A stretch of 48,886 nt of DNA, taken from Fragilaria crotonensis (taxonomy: Eukaryota > Bacillariophyta > Fragilariophyceae > Fragilariales > Fragilariaceae). Each line of letters starts with the position of its first letter. Position 1 is the stretch's first letter. The stretch covers positions 1 through 48,886 of the forward strand of contig JAKSYS010000489.1 in assembly GCA_022925895.1 (NCBI GenBank), in the 5' to 3' direction. Of this stretch, positions 5,744-30,884 are shown piece by piece. The position numbers were made by a program, and so were the translations under genes. Under the pieces are notes generated by a model. It ran no database searches. It was given only the letters and a program-made list of their open reading frames with translations, and was not told the origin of the DNA.

Positions 5744-7290
5744 ATGAATGAAAAACATGTCGATGTCGAGGCGACAGGAGGAAAAAGTATGAAAGTGGGC
5801 ACTCGAAAAAAATTCCTCGACAACTCGGACGATGTGAAAATTCAGATCGACGCGTCGTCGGAGTTCAGAGATACGACGTACGAGGCAAGCGATCGACAGT
5901 TAGAGGCGGGGGAATCTCTAAAGCGCGCTTCTGGGACGTCCGACGACATTGATATGGCTCCACCCAAGAAAAGGACGCAAGGGCAGCGAAATAATTCTAG
6001 AAACAGAACCGAAGGTAAAACACGACGCTTTTCTGGGCATTGAATCGTTCTATGAACAATAACTGACAAGGATTTGTTCTATTCCGTAGACTATCCAGCT
6101 GGCCGCGCCTCCGCAAATAACCATGCGCTCCCGACGGCGTCCCAAACACAAAGAGATTTACTTCGAGAACGAATCGTTCAGCAAAGAGACCAAATGGGTC
6201 AAGACTTGGTAGCGTCACTTATTTCATCAACTCATCGGGGTGGCGACAGTGGTGTTGACTTTGCAACGGATCTCTTTCAGCAACCTAGTGCATCTCTTCA
6301 TGGTCCCCGCTCATTGTACGACCTAGAACATTTCGCTTCTCAACGTGTACTTCTAGGAGGCCCCTTCCTCGGAGCTCGACAATCTCCCCTTCCTCGAAGT
6401 GCCCTATTAGAGTCCCCTCATTTACAAGGAACAAACCTCTATACTGGACCGATTCCTTTTGAAAACAGGCCGACTGACAGCACTCTTGCGGCATATACTA
6501 CATACCTGCGGACAGGTAGTTTAGGGATGCTGGATTCTGTCGGATTACTTGCCCGACGACAAGCCAACGTTGCTGCATGTGAAGGGGTAGGGAGGTTCCT
6601 GTTGCGAGAGGGCTTGCTAGTCAAACGGCCTCTGCATCCTTGACTTCATTCATTAACCGTCAACAATATCAACTAGCTCTTGCAAGGGAACGTTCAATGA
6701 TTAGCCAGCAGGCCACCAGGGGGAGCCACGCAATTGCTTCAAACATCATGGGCATGAATGTCGATCCATCGACTGGCGCTCCCCTATTCCCCACTACTTT
6801 GAACCGCCAACAAGAGAATTATTTAATACCTACCGATACTTCTTTTTATTCTGTACCGCGGACAGTTGTCTCAGCCCGCGACATCACAGATACTGCGGCG
6901 ATTCTGGAAATGGATCAAAGAGGCATTGAACAGAACGATGTGGACGCTTCCATTCTACTTTCAGAATCCTTTCCGGTCAAGCTGCATCGCCTTCTGCTGG
7001 ACCTTCAGCTGCATGATGGTGGGGCGGCTATTGCTTCCTTCCTACCCGACGGTGTCGCCTTTGCATTCCACGACGTGCATCGGTTTGAGACTGAGGTGAT
7101 GCGAAAGTATTTTCCTCGCATGAACAAATTCGCAAGTTTTCAAAGGCAGCTGAATCTCTACGATTTTCAAAGAATTTCAGACGGACCCGCGAGAGGAGCG
7201 TATTGCCATCCTAGCTTCAACCGAGATTTCCCACATCTTTGCAGAGGCATGAAGCGAACCAAAATCAAGGGCACGAGTACCACCGACTAA
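5744..7290 (+). pseudogene. HSF-type transcription factor, copy A (two exons, one 1-nt frame break)
   Basis: Heat-shock-factor family DNA-binding protein, expected to act in the nucleus. Exon 1 is 5744-6014 and exon 2 is 6090-7290, joined by a 75-nt intron (GTAAAA...CGTAG). The exon-1 tail is basic (PPKKRTQGQR...), a possible nuclear localisation signal. The HSF DNA-binding domain sits at the very C-terminus: FPVKLHRLLLDLQ opens it, and it contains the hallmark FASFQRQLNLYDFQRI. Compared with the intact copy at 21509, exon 2 lacks one base in GGGAGGTTCCTG at about 6591-6600. The frame then runs to a stop at about 6643, and the DNA-binding domain continues in another frame to 7290. The domain itself is intact and very close to copy B. 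The break could be true pseudogenisation or an assembly indel; other genes in this window show the same kind of deletion. If the base is restored, the protein is about 490 aa. Confidence 0.8.
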
Positions 7291-21508: not shown

Positions 21509-23053
21509 ATGAATGAAAAACATGAGTATGCCGAGGAGACAGGGGCACAAAGTGTGAATGTGGGCACTGCAAAAAAACTCCTAGACAACTCGGACGATGT
21601 GAAAATTCCGATTGATGGGTCGGCGGAGTGCGGTCAAACGAAATACAAGAAAGGAGATCGACGCTTAGAGGCGGGGGAGTCTCTAAAGCGCGCTACTGGG
21701 ACGTCCGACGAGATGGATATGGCTCCACTCAAGAAAAGGACGAAAGGGCGGCGAAGTAGGACGAGACGCCGAAGCGAAGGTAAAAAACGACGCTTTTCTG
21801 GAAATTGAATCTTTCATTGTACAATGACTGACTAAGATGTGTTTTATTCTCTAGGCTATCGAGCTGGTAGCGCCTCTTCAAACACCCATGCGCTCCCGAT
21901 GGCGTCCCAAACACAAAGGGATTTACTTCGTGACCGAATGGTTCAGCACAGAGACCAAATGGGGCAAGATTTGGCAGCGTCACTTATCCCATCAACTCAT
22001 CGGGGTGCCATTGGTGGTGTTGTCTTTCCCATGACGCCGTCTCAGCAACCCAGCGCATCTCTTCATGTTCCTCGCTCATTTTACGACCTAGAACGTTTCT
22101 CTCCCCAACGTGTACTTTTGGCAGGCCCCTTCCTCGCAGCTCGACAAATTCACCTTCCTCGAAGTGAAGTATTAGAGTCCCCTCATTTACAAGGAACGAA
22201 CTTCTTTTCTGGACCATCTTCTTTTGAAAACAGGTTGACCGACAGCACTCTCGCGGCCTATTTTACAAACCTGCGCACAGGTCGATTAGGAATGTTGGAT
22301 TCTGTCGGATTACTCTCTCGTCGACAAACAAACGTTGCTGCCTGCGAGGGAGTAGGGGGGCTTTCTGTTGCGAGAGCACTTGCAAGTCAACCGGCCTCCG
22401 CCTTCTTGACTTCATTCATTAACCGTCATCAATTTCCACTAGCTCTTGCAAGGGAACGTTCATTGCTTACTCAGCACGCCACCAGGGGAAGCCACGTAAT
22501 CGCTTCCAACGTCCTGGGCATGAATATCGATCCACCTGGTGGGGCTCTCATCACCCCCACCACTTTGAACGATCAACAAGAGAATTATTTAAAAGCTACC
22601 GATACTTCATTCTATCCTGTACCGCCGACACTTTTCTCAGCCCGCGACATCACAGGTACTGCAGCGATGCTACACATGGACCAGAGAGGCGTTGAAGCGA
22701 ACGATGAGGACGCTTCCATTCTACTTTCAGAATCCTTTCCGGTCAAGCTGCATCACCTTCTGCTGGACCTTCAGCTGCATGATGGTGGGGCGGCTATTGC
22801 TTCCTTCCTACCAGATGGAGTCACCTTTGCATTCCACGACGTACATCGGTTTGAGACTGAAGTGATGAAAACGTATTTTCCCCGCATGAACAAGTTCGCA
22901 AGTTTTCAGCGGCAGCTGAATCTCTACGATTTTCAAAGAATTCCAGACGGACCCGCGAGAGCAGCGTATTGCCATCCCAGCTTCAATCGAGATTTCCCAC
23001 ATCTTTGCAGAGGAATGAAGAGAACAAAAATAAAGGGTGCCCGTACCGACTAA
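21509..23053 (+). CDS. HSF-type transcription factor, copy B (intact, 2 exons)
   Basis: Heat-shock-factor family DNA-binding protein, nuclear by inference. Exon 1 is 21509-21779 and exon 2 is 21855-23053; the 75-nt intron runs GTAAAA...CTCTAG. This gives 489 aa. The start ATG (MNEKHEYAEETG) aligns with the start in copy A. Exon 1 ends in a strongly basic stretch (LKKRTKGRRSRTRRRSEG), a likely nuclear localisation signal. Most of exon 2 is Ser/Pro/Leu-rich with no recognised domain. The HSF DNA-binding domain occupies about the last 105 residues, from ESFPVKLHHLLLDLQ to GMKRTKIKG, with the signature FASFQRQLNLYDFQRI. A C-terminal DNA-binding domain is unusual, since classical HSFs carry it at the N-terminus followed by a coiled coil; I see no heptad-repeat trimerisation region after it. 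If the intron is retained, translation stops within it and gives a ~100-aa basic protein without the DNA-binding domain. Confidence 0.9.
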
Positions 23054-23412
23054 TTCCTGGCTTGCAACTTTCCAACTGCCAGCAGGTCACATGTTTCACT
23101 ACTCCATTGCATTCCTTTCTAGCTTACTGGTGCCATGTACTTCTTTATCGAATCTGGATCATCACGGCGGATGAAATCTGTCGGCCATCATCGGTTTCCG
23201 TATGGCTGGGTGCAAATAAAAAGTACTTTGGGTAGCCATCGTAGCTCTCGTACAAAATAAATTTAGTTATCAATTTGTCTATGATGAACACCAGAAAGAT
23301 TTCTGTATAAAGAAGCTACAATATTGAATATTTTGAAAGCACGCTCTTCTGAATTCGCAGACGAGACAAGTGTCACATTCTTCCAAAAAAAAGCGCATCA
23401 TCACTCATCACT

Positions 23413-26400
23413 TCATGCCTCCATGATGAACTTGTAGTCAAAGTCAAATGCGCAACGGTGGGTTTTGAAGTTGTTGATCAACTTGTCAACAGCCACCGGG
23501 CCATACTTGAGGCAATCATGGCGAGTTTGAGCATCAACTTGTCCTGAATCAATAGCATGGTAAGCCATCAAGTATTGTCGTGCCCGACGTATATTTTCTG
23601 ACTCTCTCAATGGTTATTACTTTCTGACAGGCAATGATGTAGACTGGATTTGAAGTTGTCCTTCCTCTCTTTTCAGCAAGGCTAAACCGTCGATATTCGC
23701 CCTTTGCCCCGCCCCAGATGTACTCCACACCCTCTCCTGCGAGTTCGGCGTGGCACTTTGGCGTCAGGAGAACCTCGGTACCGAGACGCTTTGCAATGTG
23801 CTGAAGCATTCCTCTTCGTTGACAAAATCGTGACATAAACCCATGATATGCCGTAAGTTTGTACTGTAGTCAACAACAGTCCCAAAGTCGCCTTCTTTCC
23901 GGTAAGTGAGTACTGCTTGATCCTTGTGCTGTCAATTTTCCTCGCTCCCACAACACTTGTAATAACCCCTTCGCTTTCCCCATCCAACCCTCCTTGATTT
24001 TTCAGCTGTTCTTGTGCATGCAATGTCATTAGCTCTGCAAAGGTCAACCAGCTCGCTTGTTTTTGCCTTTTGTCAATATGCCTCGGCTTCGAAGTTCAAG
24101 CTCAAGTTCCGCTCGATTGCGTTCGATAACGTTCTCGACAGGTCTCGAGATTGGAATCTGATGTTGTCGACAGAGATCCCTCAACTGTCTTGTAGTTCTT
24201 TGTGAAGTGGCATCCTCCTCCGCAATGCCTTTCTTTCCAAGCTCTTCCTTCATTTCGGTGTTTGTGAGTTTCACGTTGTTAAACGTGCCGTATCGCTTGT
24301 CGTGACGGCATTCATCTCTCTGAGAATCCGAAAGCCAGAACGGACCACTATCTGATTCGCTGAAGACAAGCGACTGTGTATCTCCAGGCTCCAAGGTTCG
24401 GGGAAGCTGCCGAGGTATCCCTCTTCTTGTTCGATAAGCGTTGTTCGCATGTGCGTTGCCTTCCCTCCGTAAGAACGATTCATCCGAAGATGGTTGAGAC
24501 CATCGGGTCTTTGTTTTGCATGCCCTGAACTGTGATCAAAAAGAAAAATGAAGTCGTATTGTGGATGCATGACTCGTAGTACATCAACTGCATCCTCGAA
24601 TTGGATAACCATGTTGTTGTAATTCCAATAGCCCTCCTGATTCTCACCATACTCGAAGAATAAGAGGAATGGAGACTTGGATTTTGTAAGTGGCATTTTT
24701 TTCGAACATCCGTGAACTTCGATTGCTGCTTCTTCATCTGCATATACTTGTCCTAACCTTTGCTCATTCACTTCATCCAGAACCATATTGCTTATCTCGC
24801 GAATAATTCCATGCTCTCGTGTAACAAAAGTGGAGACCATTATTCCCGAGCCTTCGTCCTTCGGTAGAAGGGCGCGTTGGCCACCTGGAGCGACCCACAT
24901 CTTGTGGGAGAAGAGGAACTGCTTGAAGATGGCCTCATCTTGGCCGACATAGATAACAGGTCTTGCGGCAATTGGCTTTCGAATGCTCAGGTTTCCGCCA
25001 AAGGGATACCCAGCTAATTTATCATCAAAATGATATGACACGTCAACATGATACTCAATCATGTCAATCCCGTCATCATCAACATAGATGTAACCACAAT
25101 TAGTTGGAATTTGTTCGAGACTTTCCATTCTTTTTGATTCCTCCAATGTCATCTGTATCCATCGGTGCGCTTGCACTTCATGTGCTAGGTACTTCCTCGT
25201 GAACACTGGGCGGTACGCAAGGGTCTCGGGTCTCTCGTGACCGTCGACGAAGTAGTGCTTTTCCCGCTTCTTGAATCGGAAGCCAACAGCATACATCCAT
25301 CTTGCGATTGTAGTGATTCCTAAGGTCTTGAGGCCATATCTTTGGAGAAACGAATCCTTTAGAGTGTTAGGAGTAACCTCTACTATATCAAGGACTAGAG
25401 GTGGGGTTCGTGCGTTGTTGTTGGCACCAGCACTAGCATCGGTGTCTTGTCGCTCCGTACCGTCATCATCAAACAAACCATTCTGTACTGCATTTGACAA
25501 AAGCTTCGGAAGGAGATCCTGATGCACAAAGTTGTACATTAATTCAACGCAAAGATCTTGAATGTGCGCCACCCCATGTTTCTTGAAGGCCTCCAACGCA
25601 TCCGGATTGTCGCGAAAGAACGGTGGAATCAACAGCTTTGCCTCCGGAGTTGAACAAAAGAAATGTCGGTGTTTCGCCAGCTTCCTATGCCATCTTGCTA
25701 ATGTTCTAAAGTTCGTGTAGTACTCAACTCCAACATCATTCATGCGCTCGATCGCAAACACAAGGCATTTCTTCCATGTCCATTGTGTTTTCATGTCACC
25801 GGTAACGTGGCATACAAATTGACGTAAGGCCAAGGCAATGTACATACTCCGCAATCGCAGTGTGTGTATGTCTGATTCAGAGTAGGGGCATGCCTCCACG
25901 CTCCAAGACCCTGGCTCAACAACATTTGTCCACGTCTTTCCATTCCTATTCACCGACTCTAGCAGCTCAATGCGATCGAGCACGATTGATTTCACGCATT
26001 CCATTGTTTCATAGTTTACGGCAGAGGGAGCAAAGATTTTGCGGGCATCACCAGATTCCCACCAGGAATTAGGTGAAGATGAGCATGTTGCTGCCTGTCT
26101 GTGTTCCATCAGAAGCACCGCTGTCACCCAAAATAAGATCACTTTCGTCCATCAACACTCTCGGTCGCTTTGCTTCTGGTTCCGTAGTCATGTCAGTGGT
26201 GGACAATGGATGCATTCGGGCACCAAGAGTCAACCGCTTCAAGACGCAGTCTTGCTCCCATACTGTAGCATTAAGTTGCGACGGTTGTGATGGAATCAAT
26301 CCAACCTGGGTTGTGACCCAGAAGAAGTCCCTCCGAGTCCGATTTTGGTACGTATGTCGAAAGACTTGCAGCTGCAATCCATCTTGAATTTCAAGTATGT

Positions 26401-26632
26401 TTGCAGAAGTTCCCGTAAAAGGAAGCACCTTGTTCACCACTCTCTTCATTGTACTCAATGAGAACTTGATAGCATCTCCTATTTGGAACTTCATGTGCAT
26501 GTAGTCAACAAGTTGTTCGGCAGGTAGCCATCTCCCGTGCAGTTCCGGTTCGCTAAAAACGCCACGCAGACAAGTCAAGATAAATGCGGATCCGTTGTGT
26601 CTCCCGTGTGCACCGAGAGTGCGAATGCTCAT
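23413..26632 (-). pseudogene. DDE transposase gene of the 3.6-kb element (several frame breaks)
   Basis: Reading from 26632 toward 23413, the pieces in order are: an N-terminal part (MSIRTLGAHGRHNGSAFILT, RWLPAEQLVDYMHMKF); after a frame change near 26080 a long central part with a helix-turn-helix-like region (GITTIARWMYAVGFRFKKRE), VDGHERPETLAYR, then YVGQDEAIFKQF and FIFLFDHSSGHAKQRPDGLN, likely carrying the two catalytic Asp; after a frame change near 24398 (CCCC run) a segment beginning TLEPGDTQSLVFSE; then, with more changes, ELAGEGVEYIWGGAKGEYRR, which fits the position of the catalytic Glu; and a C-terminal helix ending at the stop at 23413. All parts of a full protein (about 1050 residues) are present, so it may be intact in reality and broken by base-level errors, or recently inactivated. 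Confidence 0.8.
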
Positions 26633-26676
26633 GATGTACTTGACGAAGCTTTTGAGCTATCGGTGCACACGGGAGG
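26600..26676 (-). promoter_or_regulatory. Inverted repeat (hairpin) enclosing the transposase start codon
   Basis: Arms CTCCCGTGTGCACCGAGAG (26601-26619) and CTATCGGTGCACACGGGAG (26657-26675) are near-perfect reverse complements, with about a 37-nt loop. The transposase ATG (26632-26630, minus) lies in the loop, and the 26601-26619 arm encodes part of its N-terminus (TLGAHGR). The related element at 27387-28870 has the same hairpin at the same distance from its end. In mRNA this would place the start codon in a stem-loop. A regulatory role is inference. Confidence 0.7.
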
Positions 26677-26831
26677 TGCCTTTGATTGGAAGGTAATGAT
26701 TGTCGAAGGTTGACAACAATGAAGCACGACGTTTGACGTGATGAGTGCATCGGCGGAGGGAAAATAACAAAAATGTCATACTATGGTGTACTAAGTCTAC
26801 CCAAATCCCTTTTTCCGTGCACCCAGCCATA

Positions 26832-27386
26832 CCTCTTGCCCACCATCACAAATTTTATGTCTGCAACACGTATTGTGACGGACCGAAGACATCTGGCTGT
26901 GACACACATTCACGTACGCCTTGGAACGGTAGTGACTGGAATGTGATGATTGAATGTGGAAGGTCTAAGTATTGCTGTCTGCCGTGGAGGCATGCGGCCT
27001 TTCTGATTTGCAGTGCATCATACTTGTTGTTGAGACGTTGGAGTAGTTTCTAAGTACCAGGTACAGAGTTATTCCGACGGGAGCCCGTGTATGACCCCTA
27101 ATCGAGCCGGCCTTGACCTGAAGTAGTGTACGGGAGTACTGAGTTCTACTCTGTAATGGTACAGTGTACGGTATTTCTATTCTCAGAGCAGCAGTCTGAG
27201 ATTCGTAGGTAAAGTTGATGTGTAACTTAATTTGCAATATAATTTATGGAGTCGATTTCTTTAGAAAAGCTCGATCGGCTCGATTAGGGGACATATGCAC
27301 ATACACGGCCTCCCCATAAAACCCTTATTTCATTATACTGGTGTACCGGGACGAGTACCGAGTACTCTGAATTCTCATTTACTCTA
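26832..27386. other. Spacer between two related transposons
   Basis: 26832-27020 is the distal part of duplication copy B. The remainder holds GTAC-rich sequence (GGGAGTACTGAGTTCTACTC near 27131; CGAGTACCGAGTACTC near 27350). No gene recognised. Confidence 0.5.
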
Positions 27387-28870
27387 TGGCTGGGTGCAGC
27401 TTTTGTGAATTTTGGGTAGCCTCCGTAGAGACAGTATGCTATTTATTTAGTTCACCGCCGACGTCCATGAGCTTATCTCGTTGATCCCCACACTTCATTG
27501 TTGCTGACCTTCACCAACTCATATCTTGTGTTCAGTTGTGTCTCCCGCGTGCACCGATAGCTCTATAGGTTCATCAAGGGCTCTTTGAATAGTGGAAGCA
27601 TCGGTGCACGCGGGAGACGCAACAGATTGACATTTATCTTGTCTTGATTGCCGATGGCTTTCAGCGAAAGATTTGTAATAGCGGTCCATCGAACTTGCTC
27701 TACTTATTCACATGTGCATGAAGTGTGTACCATTGTTAAACAACTCTCCGGCTGTACAAGTTGCTGTATCATGGTGCCGCTTCAAGATGCTGACCACGAT
27801 TATACAACAAATGAAGGTGAGTACATTTGAAGGCTAGAATTTCTTGTCAAAAAGCAGACGTACTCACGTCACTTTTCGACAACTTTCGAGTAAGAAAGAG
27901 GCACCGTCACCGCATCCTAGTGTTGGGAATGATTTTGTTTGAAATCCAATTGCCTGCACGCAGGCAGTAGTCATCTACAGTGCATCGAAAGGGGTCCGAG
28001 GTTTCTTTAGTATTTGCAGTGCACGGCCACGCTTGATTTGTGTGTGGTCTCTTCAATGTTGCCATAGTGTTGGCCTGGTGGTACGCTGAGTACGGTGATC
28101 CCGACAGCGCTTGACTTTCCCTGCTGTTGTCTTGTGAAGTGCACAAGAATGGTGCAGTGTTTTCACGCTGGTATTTGGAATCTCTGCATTATATTGCTAG
28201 GACGAGGCATGCTCCAGCATTTGCTGTGTTTGTCGCCAGTACCACTTCTTTCTGCATTATTTCTGAAATAAACTATTGCTGCCATCTGTGATGACGATCC
28301 ATGACTGCTGCATGACCATTGAGTAACGGCCAAACCAGTACCAATTCAAGCGGAGGTGTTGAATTCCGCATGCAATGTTCAGCATTAACCCTGTCGCAAA
28401 AATGAAGCTCTGCGATGTATTCGATATTTTCTTGACACTAAAGTTAACACAAGCTAGAATTACTCTAGAAGAACCTTGAAGGTTAATCAACCATCGGTTG
28501 TCATCTCTTTCATACAGCTAGCGAGTAGATGTTGCAACGTGTCACAACCACATAATGGAAACAATAGAGGACCTATGAAACCTCTCAATTATCCTTAGTG
28601 CTGGGCTTGGCAGCACCGTGATGTGAAGATACAAAGTTGACATTGGGTACAATTCTATCATGGGCATGCATATGATGATCTTTGTTCTTGTGATGTAATC
28701 AAATCCCATGTTCCAAGCTCCTAAGCTGGCATGCATTGCATAACAGCAGCAACAGTAAAGAAACGCGAAACGCCGCTGGCTCATCCAGAATATTCATTGT
28801 ATGCTAAATTTTTCTACCATACTACGACCTACTATGGCTACCCAAAGGACTTTTTTCCTGCACCCAGCCA
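27387..28870 (+). mobile_element. Non-autonomous relative of the 3.6-kb TA-inserting transposon, opposite orientation
   Basis: 1484 bp with the same terminal inverted repeats (TGGCTGGGTGCA...TTTGGGTAGCC) and flanking TA at 27385-27386 and 28871-28872. Its left ~270 bp matches the transposase 5' end of the element at 23203-26829, including the hairpin at 27541-27617 and the stretch after it (GGAGACGCAACAGATTGACA against GGAGACACAACGGATCCGCA). Its right end (AGTCCTTTGGGTAGCCATAGTAG read inward) matches the other element's left end. It has no long open frame, so it would depend on transposase from elsewhere. Confidence 0.85.
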
Positions 28871-30884
28871 TACGCAAAACGCAAATACAAATAGACTTTG
28901 AATAAGGGTCACCCTTTCGTACTGGTGCATGTAGCAAATCGTTGCGATGAATTATTCGCCCGCCGAATGTCGTCTCGCAAAAACAAAAATCGTCTCGCAT
29001 AGCTAAGCCCAGTGTTTTCATCCATTCCGTTCATGCAATGGAACCAGCGCAACAATAGCTATTCTTGGTGGAATACGCTTACGCACATGTTACAAGAATA
29101 CTGTAACAGAAGGCATTAGAGTGGTGCTTGATGATGCTTGTAAATCCAATTGACAGTATGCAAGTTCTCCCTTTTTCAACCAAAACAAACACCCACACTG
29201 AAGCCAGTCTGCTGACACCATACTGCCTACTAGTGATGTGAGTTATGTGTGTTATGCTGCATCACTCGTGATCACTAATACAATTTGATTTTCTCTCCCT
29301 TCTGAAGTCAGCAATCTGTATTTCTAATCATATACTAGGTCATCCATGTCAGAAAGGTGGTTGCAAGAGCTGCTGTTTTGAGTTGCACAGTAAACTACCC
29401 TCCCAGAGCCAAAAAATACTTGTGTGCTCCCTGTTTTTGGATGACACCACCTTTCTTAAAAAACAATATTGTCGTCTGCATTATGAGTTGTCCCTAATTG
29501 GCTGGCAATCACCAAGTACATTTGCTTATTTTTATCAAAGTGAACCAAAGCATCTTGAATGCAAGCCTCAGTGATTCTACTAGCTACCAAGTGTGGATGT
29601 GGCTTAATCCAGTTAGACAACAATGGGAGTCCTTCAGGAGACATCAAACAATTGCTGTTTGCTGTTTCTCCTCTTCACCAGCAGACAACTTCAAACGGTG
29701 GTTGCCCACCAAGGTGTCTCAACCAAGGTTAGAGAGACTCAACTAAAACATGGTGGTGAGCTGTACATCCTCAACAGGTTGATCCAACTCCTCCTGCACT
29801 GCACCACTGTGACGACCAGATGCATGAGCCATCATGAAGCACCGTGATGCAGCACTCGCACCTTTTGTTTTGCCAAAAGTTTCTAATGAGTGAGCTTTTT
29901 CAATCACAGCGCCCTGCATCCCAGCAATTGTTCTGATGTGAACTTATCATTGCAGTGTTGAGCAATGCTTCAAGGCTCAACATGTTGTGCAGCAAAAATG
30001 CTGGCATTTTGGTACATCAACAAGGTCAACCTGAGAACAGCATTTGCTCATCTTGCTTCTTGATTAAGGTGTGCACCTTTAACTCTCCTGAAGCATTATC
30101 ATAATCATTCAATTTGTTTGTTCTTTGTCCTACTATGTCGAGGAATTGCTGGTGCATCATGCATCACACAACACATGCTGTTGCCATGTGAAGTTGCTTG
30201 TGTATTTTGAGAAGGATGGTCAGCAGCACCATGATTTACCTGCCTCCAAGGATGTCAACTTTCATCAATACTACTAAGTTGCTTCATTAAGTTGAGCCCC
30301 AAACTTTCTTAGCAGCTTTTTGATGCTTTGTTTGGAGCACTTATTGATCGTCAAAACAGCTGCAAGATATGTTGAAACAATGGTAATCAAGAGTGGTCAG
30401 CTTCCTTCCTGCCCCAGCTGCCACAACAGGAGATTGAAGTCTATTGCTGCTTCATTTAATGAAACAGCAATGTCAATGTCATCCTCCTATTCCAACCAGC
30501 ACCCACAATAGACCGCATCACAAAGAGATTGGAGCTGCGTTTGTTGTCAAAAGGAGGAATCATCCAGAAAGGTACTCACTGTATTGTCCAGAGGCACAAC
30601 ATTTCATGAATGGTTCATTCCAGCCCCAAGCACCAATATAGGCATAGTTTTATGAATTTCACTGCTTGCTGCTTGCTGTCCTCAAAACCTTTCCACACAT
30701 GCTGCTGTTCTTGAAAACAAGTTAAGAACCTTTTGAGCAAATAGTATAGCTGCTTACGAAACCTCAGAGATCTTGACTGGGATTGCATGCGGGAAGATGG
30801 AATCATGGGATTTGCTGCGTTGTGTTTAGGTTCTTGTTGACAAGGTTTTATTACGAGCTTTTCTTTCGCACCCGCCAGTCATCA
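28871..30884. other. Two kilobases without a recognisable gene; decayed sequence
   Basis: I see no intact gene. The minus strand at about 29450-29950 has fairly open but interrupted frames (for example LPLLSNWIKPHPHLVASR, ALVHFDKNKQMYLVIASQ) and the minus strand at 30615-30806 has a short open frame; these look like worn protein-coding sequence of an old element rather than a live gene. Family not identified. Confidence 0.4.

Follow-up and report, generated by a model that had tools for sequence, protein, structure and literature searches.

The bacterial elements IS10 and IS50 show fold-back inhibition at the transposase start, with the native transcript starting downstream of the first arm. 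In eukaryotes, the Drosophila P element carries internal 11-bp repeats, one at each end, and elements of the piggyBac superfamily duplicate TTAA at their target site. For piggyBat and piggyBac, published work describes palindromes bound by two domains of a transposase dimer, the letters of which are unrelated between the two elements, whose transposases are 28.7% identical (PMC11707139). Sailor elements have TATA duplications, 82 residues from the second D to the E, and transposases of 323-676 aa (PMC8533490). Here we describe a palindrome at the start of a diatom transposase gene, which is a 5′-subterminal feature of a large TA-flanked DNA transposon family.

Two elements and their hairpins in the window

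The window is the whole stretch analyzed, one contig of 48,886 nucleotides from the 62.1-Mb Fragilaria crotonensis assembly. It encodes an alpha-mannosidase, a histidine phosphatase and a cyclophilin, among others, as well as two proteins with HSF-type DNA-binding domains (6640-7290 and 21842-23053), 14.5 kb apart. Two separate TA-flanked elements in opposite orientation, A and B, each start with TATGGCTGGGTGCA and finish with its complement. Element A (23201-26831, minus strand, flanking TA included) is a decayed autonomous copy with TATGGCTGGGTGCA inverted at its two ends. Its 5′ terminal repeat block covers the first ~69 bp (26763-26831, minus strand) and its 3′ terminal block the last ~75 bp (23201-23275, minus strand); the latter is common to the non-coding derivatives, and no palindrome was detected in it. 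Element B (27385-28872, plus strand) is a non-coding derivative of 1488 bp, flanking TA included, with its 3′ terminal block at 28815-28872 (plus strand). Between A and B lies a separate element of ~240 bp (27075-27318), with CGGGAGCCCGTGTATGACCCCTAATCGAGCCG and a near-complement as inverted ends and at least 42 matches in the genome (40 scored among 171 candidates, most at 87-92% identity), which is a putative young MITE-like family.

In element A, palindrome arm 1 (26657-26675, minus strand) lies upstream of the ATG and pairs at 18 of 19 positions with arm 2 (26601-26619, minus strand) around a 37-nt loop (26620-26656). The loop contains the transposase ATG (26632-26630, minus strand) and TCGTCAAG, which is related to a conserved TCATCAA motif, and arm 2, the low-coordinate arm, provides the codons for about residues 5-11 of MSIRTLGAHGR. 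Folded as RNA, the hairpin reaches z = -5.19, and none of 200 shuffles gave an equal fold. The first-pass annotation had thus described the arms, the loop with its ATG and the coding arm correctly, and the folding of the 5′ mRNA end that it proposed as a check yields a very stable hairpin. It had also placed the same hairpin in element B at 27541-27617; the hairpin is there, but that extent is too short, the full one being 27532-27626. Arm 1 (27532-27558) and arm 2 (27600-27626) of element B, both on the plus strand, are 93% complementary and flank a loop (27559-27599) that has TTCATCAAG at 27570-27578 and has lost the ATG. Self-comparison placed the two hairpins at a similar distance inward of the inverted terminal sequences, and because A and B are oppositely oriented, the coding arm of A matches the far arm of B. 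The compensating change first noticed between the two elements, T-A versus C-G, turned out to be one among several compensated pairs.

Distribution of the palindrome across the transposon family

Searching the genome with the hairpin region gave 61 matches, which collapse to 35 places. Fetching 5′ regions for hairpin, terminal-repeat and transposase matches gave 123 loci, with a 5′ terminus called in 113. To be accepted, a palindrome had to score at least 10, have a first arm that begins 140-200 bp inward and enclose 28-60 nt in its loop; this threshold was set after inspecting the data, thresholds and representatives being author-chosen and the survey covering one genome. It was found in 94 of the 113 called 5′ ends (41 of 55 clusters); when 1100 dinucleotide-shuffled segments were put through this test, 7 passed. 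Since many loci came from queries that contain the hairpin, 94/113 is a biased frequency. Among loci found through the transposase (L053-L068 and L083-L122; 56 fetched), 39 of 49 called ends pass.

The 19 failures are of several kinds. Nine match less strongly at the position where the palindrome is expected (L045, L046, L048-L052, L083, L151), with the scores of L048-L051 being no better than shuffles. Two have a strong palindrome but a miscalled terminus (L038, L053), two pair over 11 positions only when two G-U pairs are allowed (L059, L084), L058 has a weak core, and L097, L105 and L106 are degraded. In L064 and L065 the palindrome is not above shuffles. Across the family as a whole, palindromes are weak or broken in L047, L048, L050, L058 and L097. 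For the ten loci without a called terminus, the palindrome was present in L042, L100, L122, L140 and L141 and was not found in L055, L063, L090, L103 and L109.

Of 16 elements, 14 show the pattern TATGG...CCATA at their two ends; in the other two, L079 and L080, the pattern did not match the left end. The TA target duplication is read from these flanks. In the last 350 bp of all 16 elements, neither a match to the arms beyond the level of shuffled arms nor an inverted repeat with a score above 9 turned up (for L075, the script having missed its hairpin, the arm was placed by position), and the idea that the arms belong to both element ends is rejected.

Two main clades differ in where the palindrome lies relative to the gene. 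In clade I, the type found in the window, the arms lie near +158-173 and +215-230, with the ATG near +200 in the loop, and arm 2 encodes the start of the protein. In clade II (38-39% protein identity), the arms are located around +189-203 and +248-263 and the ATG comes ~9 nt after arm 2, so that neither arm is coding. A distant pair, L101/L102, has an in-frame ATG within the loop and arms of a third, unrelated sequence. With clade II arms upstream of the ATG and the palindrome kept in non-coding families, a hairpin dictated by coding is rejected.

The transposase

The transposase of element A is split over two frames, a 187-aa 5′ ORF (26069-26632, minus strand) and a 623-aa catalytic-region ORF (24271-26142, minus strand), and its similarity to most relatives ends at residue ~582 of the latter. 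The intact relatives L070 and L069 have a single ORF of 1069-1086 aa. At least 81 genome matches were obtained with this transposase as query (71 scored of 736 candidates) and at least 64 with a second, distant one (46 scored of 1090 candidates). Conserved motifs are GQDE, FDHSxGH and HAExAGEGxEY, the G-x-E-Y part of which is missing from the broken L075 frame. By our own motif assignment, the presumed catalytic residues are spaced by 131-133 and 231-270 residues, the second range coming from three proteins. In L069 (278-3517), a SAP-like sequence lies between the second D and the presumed E (Pfam SAP E 0.13, below the cut-off).

Searches of Pfam and PDB sequences with the transposase returned no family above the cut-offs; a winged-HTH family, HTH_33, matched weakly in two of five proteins (best E 0.027, below the cut-off). 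The structural model of the 623-aa ORF has a mean pLDDT of 30.7, too low for reading the RNase H fold. For residues ~13-110 of the 187-aa ORF, one model out of five is confident and arranges the structural elements in the order of a winged-helix-like domain. The structures that match this N-terminal model belong for the most part to winged-helix proteins, spread over many families; the best has Z 7.7, which is within the range that the comparison tool calls common, and no Foldseek match had E < 0.001. No family assignment is claimed from them. Placement of the element in a superfamily remains putative, the TA flanks and DDE-like motifs being features of IS630-Tc1-mariner. In the presumed recognition helix of clade II, proteins of elements with AACTGCC arms have NKAISS, and those with ATCAG arms have NRAI followed by other residues; this comparison covers the first ~60 codons of the transposase in L066-L108 and amounts to one phylogenetic contrast.

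Non-coding derivatives

Several families keep the ends around different interiors. One group of related elements of 1.5 kb comprises B, L078-L080 and L127/L128. L081 matches B and L127 over the 5′ 440-500 bp and then differs, and L082 shares with this group nothing but ~260-280 bp on the 5′ side and the 3′ end. L076/L077, of 1.1 and 0.6 kb, additionally retain part of the 3′ coding region, and L124/L129 are 1.86 kb long. What families with unlike interiors have in common is 235-284 bp at the start and ~45-80 bp at the finish; L076 and L078, for example, can be aligned only at positions 1-66, across the hairpin (157-236) and at the 3′ end. Five non-coding representatives, compared region by region, have an identity of 0.80 over the first 69 bp, 0.64 over the spacer, 0.81 over each of the two arms and 0.77 over the loop; it is then 0.73 up to position 262 and 0.32 beyond. 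The ATG is lost in B and L082 and still there in L076, L081 and L127. All five carry exactly the same loop motif, TCATCAA, for which clade II has a counterpart; it might mark a transcription start or serve as an additional protein site.

B and L127, which have a homologous interior, differ by one fully compensated pair (C-G versus A-T), their other arm differences being one-sided, and the non-coding families may have received their arm variants from different autonomous ancestors. Twenty further clade II 5′ ends, fetched with a palindrome-containing query, all have palindromes scoring 9.5-17; in three of them (L133, L144, L149) the frames from the ATG run for 9, 24 and 74 codons. Elements with these ends but no palindrome were sought in ten stretches cut at single-ended terminus matches. 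The three with a called far end, L124, L127 and L129, all carry the palindrome, as does L128, which is ~100% alike to L127; no far end was called in the other six.

Covariation of the arms

The letters of the arms turn over while their pairing is kept. In the clade II alignment (17 sequences, 16 distinct), 92.9% of cells are paired and 43 cells have changed on both sides, compared with 14.4 after shuffling; covariation scores 0.518, compared with 0.139. Sliding the register by 1-3 columns reduces pairing to 27-50%. In the clade I alignment (22 sequences), the corresponding values are 82.5% paired, 39 versus 15.5 cells, scores of 0.251 versus 0.118, and 25-54% pairing after sliding by 1-3 columns. 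None of 500 shuffles reaches the covariation score in either clade. Counting pairs with any double change gives a weaker excess, equaled by 8 and 57 of 500 shuffles. Alignment rows were author-chosen (17 of 20 clade II references, L122 giving none, and 22 of 57 clade I rows).

Trees were built from sequence outside the hairpin, for 11 clade II lineages and 14 clade I autonomous lineages. Clade II shows 18 double pair-keeping changes against seven single breaks and two double breaking changes, every break being on a terminal branch, and clade I shows 22 double pair-keeping changes, nine single breaks, three double breaking changes and two single repairs. Over both clades, double pair-keeping changes outnumber breaking ones by 40 to 21 on all branches and by 23 to 3 on internal branches, ambiguous ancestral states having been settled towards paired, which favors the pair-keeping counts. 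The 18 families of recent copies instead contain nine single breaks and no double change, together with three single pair-making changes and one mismatch-to-mismatch change (Fisher p 3e-6 versus internal branches and 2e-4 versus all branches). Pairs thus break in inserted copies, but seldom in lineages that are still jumping.

Not every arm letter is free to change. In arm 1 of the 22 clade I sequences, a CTCCC block has C12, T13, C15 and C16 invariant and C14 nearly so, and it is kept even though columns 12 and 14 are unpaired in 14 and 12 of the sequences, as would be expected of an arm whose sequence is read.

These results agree with the suggestion of the first-pass annotation that pairing is selected independently of coding, which is supported by covariation in alignments and trees, by retention in non-coding elements and by the non-coding arms of clade II. 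Unpaired arm changes without covariation, which it had named as evidence against this, do occur in the families of recent copies and on terminal branches, and hardly on internal ones. Of the two functions that it offered for the structure, a transposase binding site near the element end fits the sequences best. A stem-loop limiting translation is weakened by the ATG-less elements that keep the palindrome and, in small numbers, by the G-U pairs considered below.

Possible explanations for the palindrome

There are several possible explanations for a palindrome that evolves in this way. The one that we consider fairly probable is that this transposon moves by cut-and-paste and has an extended 5′ end that its 3′ end does not mirror, with the hairpin as the palindromic core, made of two inverted putative transposase sites. 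The 5′ end (~236-266 bp) would consist of the terminal inverted repeat and two inverted 14-26-bp sites ~150-205 bp in, set ~37-57 bp apart; at the 3′ end, the terminal repeat alone was found. Two transposase protomers would bind the inverted sites as double-stranded DNA, perhaps through the winged-helix-like N-terminal domain, and through the bound sites the 5′ end would be brought into the transposition complex. The site and the beginning of the gene overlap, and bound transposase may therefore also repress its own gene, a form of autoregulation. Were the specificity of binding to drift from one lineage to another, the two arms would have to change in concert, and covariation would follow.

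The same gene start suggests an mRNA hairpin that acts as a translation brake on the model of IS10 and IS50, with transcripts reading in from outside folding at or before the ATG and the native transcript, starting in the loop, escaping for want of arm 1. The fold is very stable, it encloses the ATG in clade I and an in-frame ATG in L101/L102, it ends just short of the ATG in clade II, and the conserved TCATCAA might be the transcription start. A comparable arrangement is described for the bacterial ISPpu9, where a fold in the 5′-UTR at the transposase start limits translation, although that system works at the RNA level, whereas the palindrome here is kept in non-coding elements and has no G-U preference (PMC8450116). 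B and L082 keep the palindrome despite having lost the ATG, which a brake on translation leaves unaccounted for. Further, an RNA fold in the transcribed strand should favor G-U pairs. The 38 lineage-level deviations from Watson-Crick pairing comprise 6 G-U, 11 A-C and 21 others; the difference between 6 and 11 is not significant (p 0.33) and the numbers are small, and G-U pairs fall significantly below the neutral expectation with one of the two mutation mixes assumed and not with the other (p 0.015 and 0.13). Clade II has no G-U in the first 13 pairs; a U-G at its last pair in four rows falls outside the 38 deviations. Taken together, arm turnover with pairing, retention in non-coding elements, non-coding clade II arms and G-U pairs that are not favored argue, from sequence evidence, for a cis-acting DNA site of the 5′ end rather than mainly an mRNA brake, which we regard as unlikely.

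A DNA site might equally be recognized by shape, as an extruded cruciform or hairpin bound by the transposase or a host factor, in which case any arm letters would do provided that they pair. The covariation predicted is identical for a cruciform and for two inverted sites, and the turnover of letters with pairing kept, along with arms reaching 26-28 nt in non-coding copies, would suit a cruciform well. The outer letters of arm 1, however, are conserved even where unpaired, and loops of 37-57 nt do not favor extrusion, which makes this reading distinctly unlikely. Slightly easier to entertain, yet still rather unlikely, is that pairing itself, and not the reading of two sequences, is the function, with a DNA cruciform needed for mobilization and the same fold blocking the start codon in read-in mRNA; if so, one covarying structure would serve both as a transposon end and as a brake on accidental expression. 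Mutation alone might also maintain the palindrome without selection, through template switching that copies one arm onto the other, a direct source of double changes with no G-U bias. The recent copies, with no double and nine single breaking changes, show the opposite of the lineages, which disfavors homogenization of the arms in place, and the 5′ block is conserved against replaced or diverged interiors; we hold this to be the least likely of the explanations. Nearly as improbable is a site that serves only as an autoregulatory operator on the transposase promoter and has no part in mobility: the palindrome does lie at the gene start and turned up at the 5′ end alone, but families without the gene still keep it. 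We return to the two inverted putative transposase sites, with the palindrome probably being part of the handle by which the transposase grips its DNA.

The family offers a natural record, in many lineages of one genome, of coordinated evolution within a transposon end and presumably between that end and its transposase, and the non-coding derivatives keep this evolving end too. Its site pairs and winged-helix-like domains are material for studying how transposase specificity changes, and whether the palindrome is read as two sequences or as one structure becomes a testable question. More generally, strong covariation in the 5′ leader of a gene need not imply an RNA structure.

Comparison with known systems

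Likeness to IS630-Tc1-mariner, including the DD82E group Sailor (PMC8533490), lies in the TA-rich target, the DDE-like motifs and the weak HTH_33 match. The TA flanks, the 231-270 residues in three proteins by our own assignment and the length of 1069-1086 aa differ from Sailor itself. The Drosophila P element is similar in having terminal and internal repeats, asymmetrically spaced internal transposase sites and internally deleted non-autonomous copies, and differs in its 8-bp target duplication (PMC7776569). In the family described here, unlike the P element, the two arms sit together at a single end, where they covary.

Of the described arrangements that we found, the left end of piggyBat is, by analogy, the nearest. 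There too palindromes lie inside the transposon end, and in piggyBat in the left end only, but they are short and imperfect, three of them within the first ~120 bp, and belong to another transposase (PMC11707139). Our family has one palindrome, with arms of 14-26 nt and a spacer of 37-57 nt, 150-205 bp from the tip, which overlaps the gene start; its ends are TA-flanked and not TTAA-flanked, which speaks against membership of the piggyBac superfamily. Among the titles listed from the open-access literature that we searched, none pointed to a description of this transposon family or of such a covarying palindrome. Asymmetric palindromic transposase sites are thus a known type, of which the sequences examined here appear to present a new variant in an unplaced transposase family.
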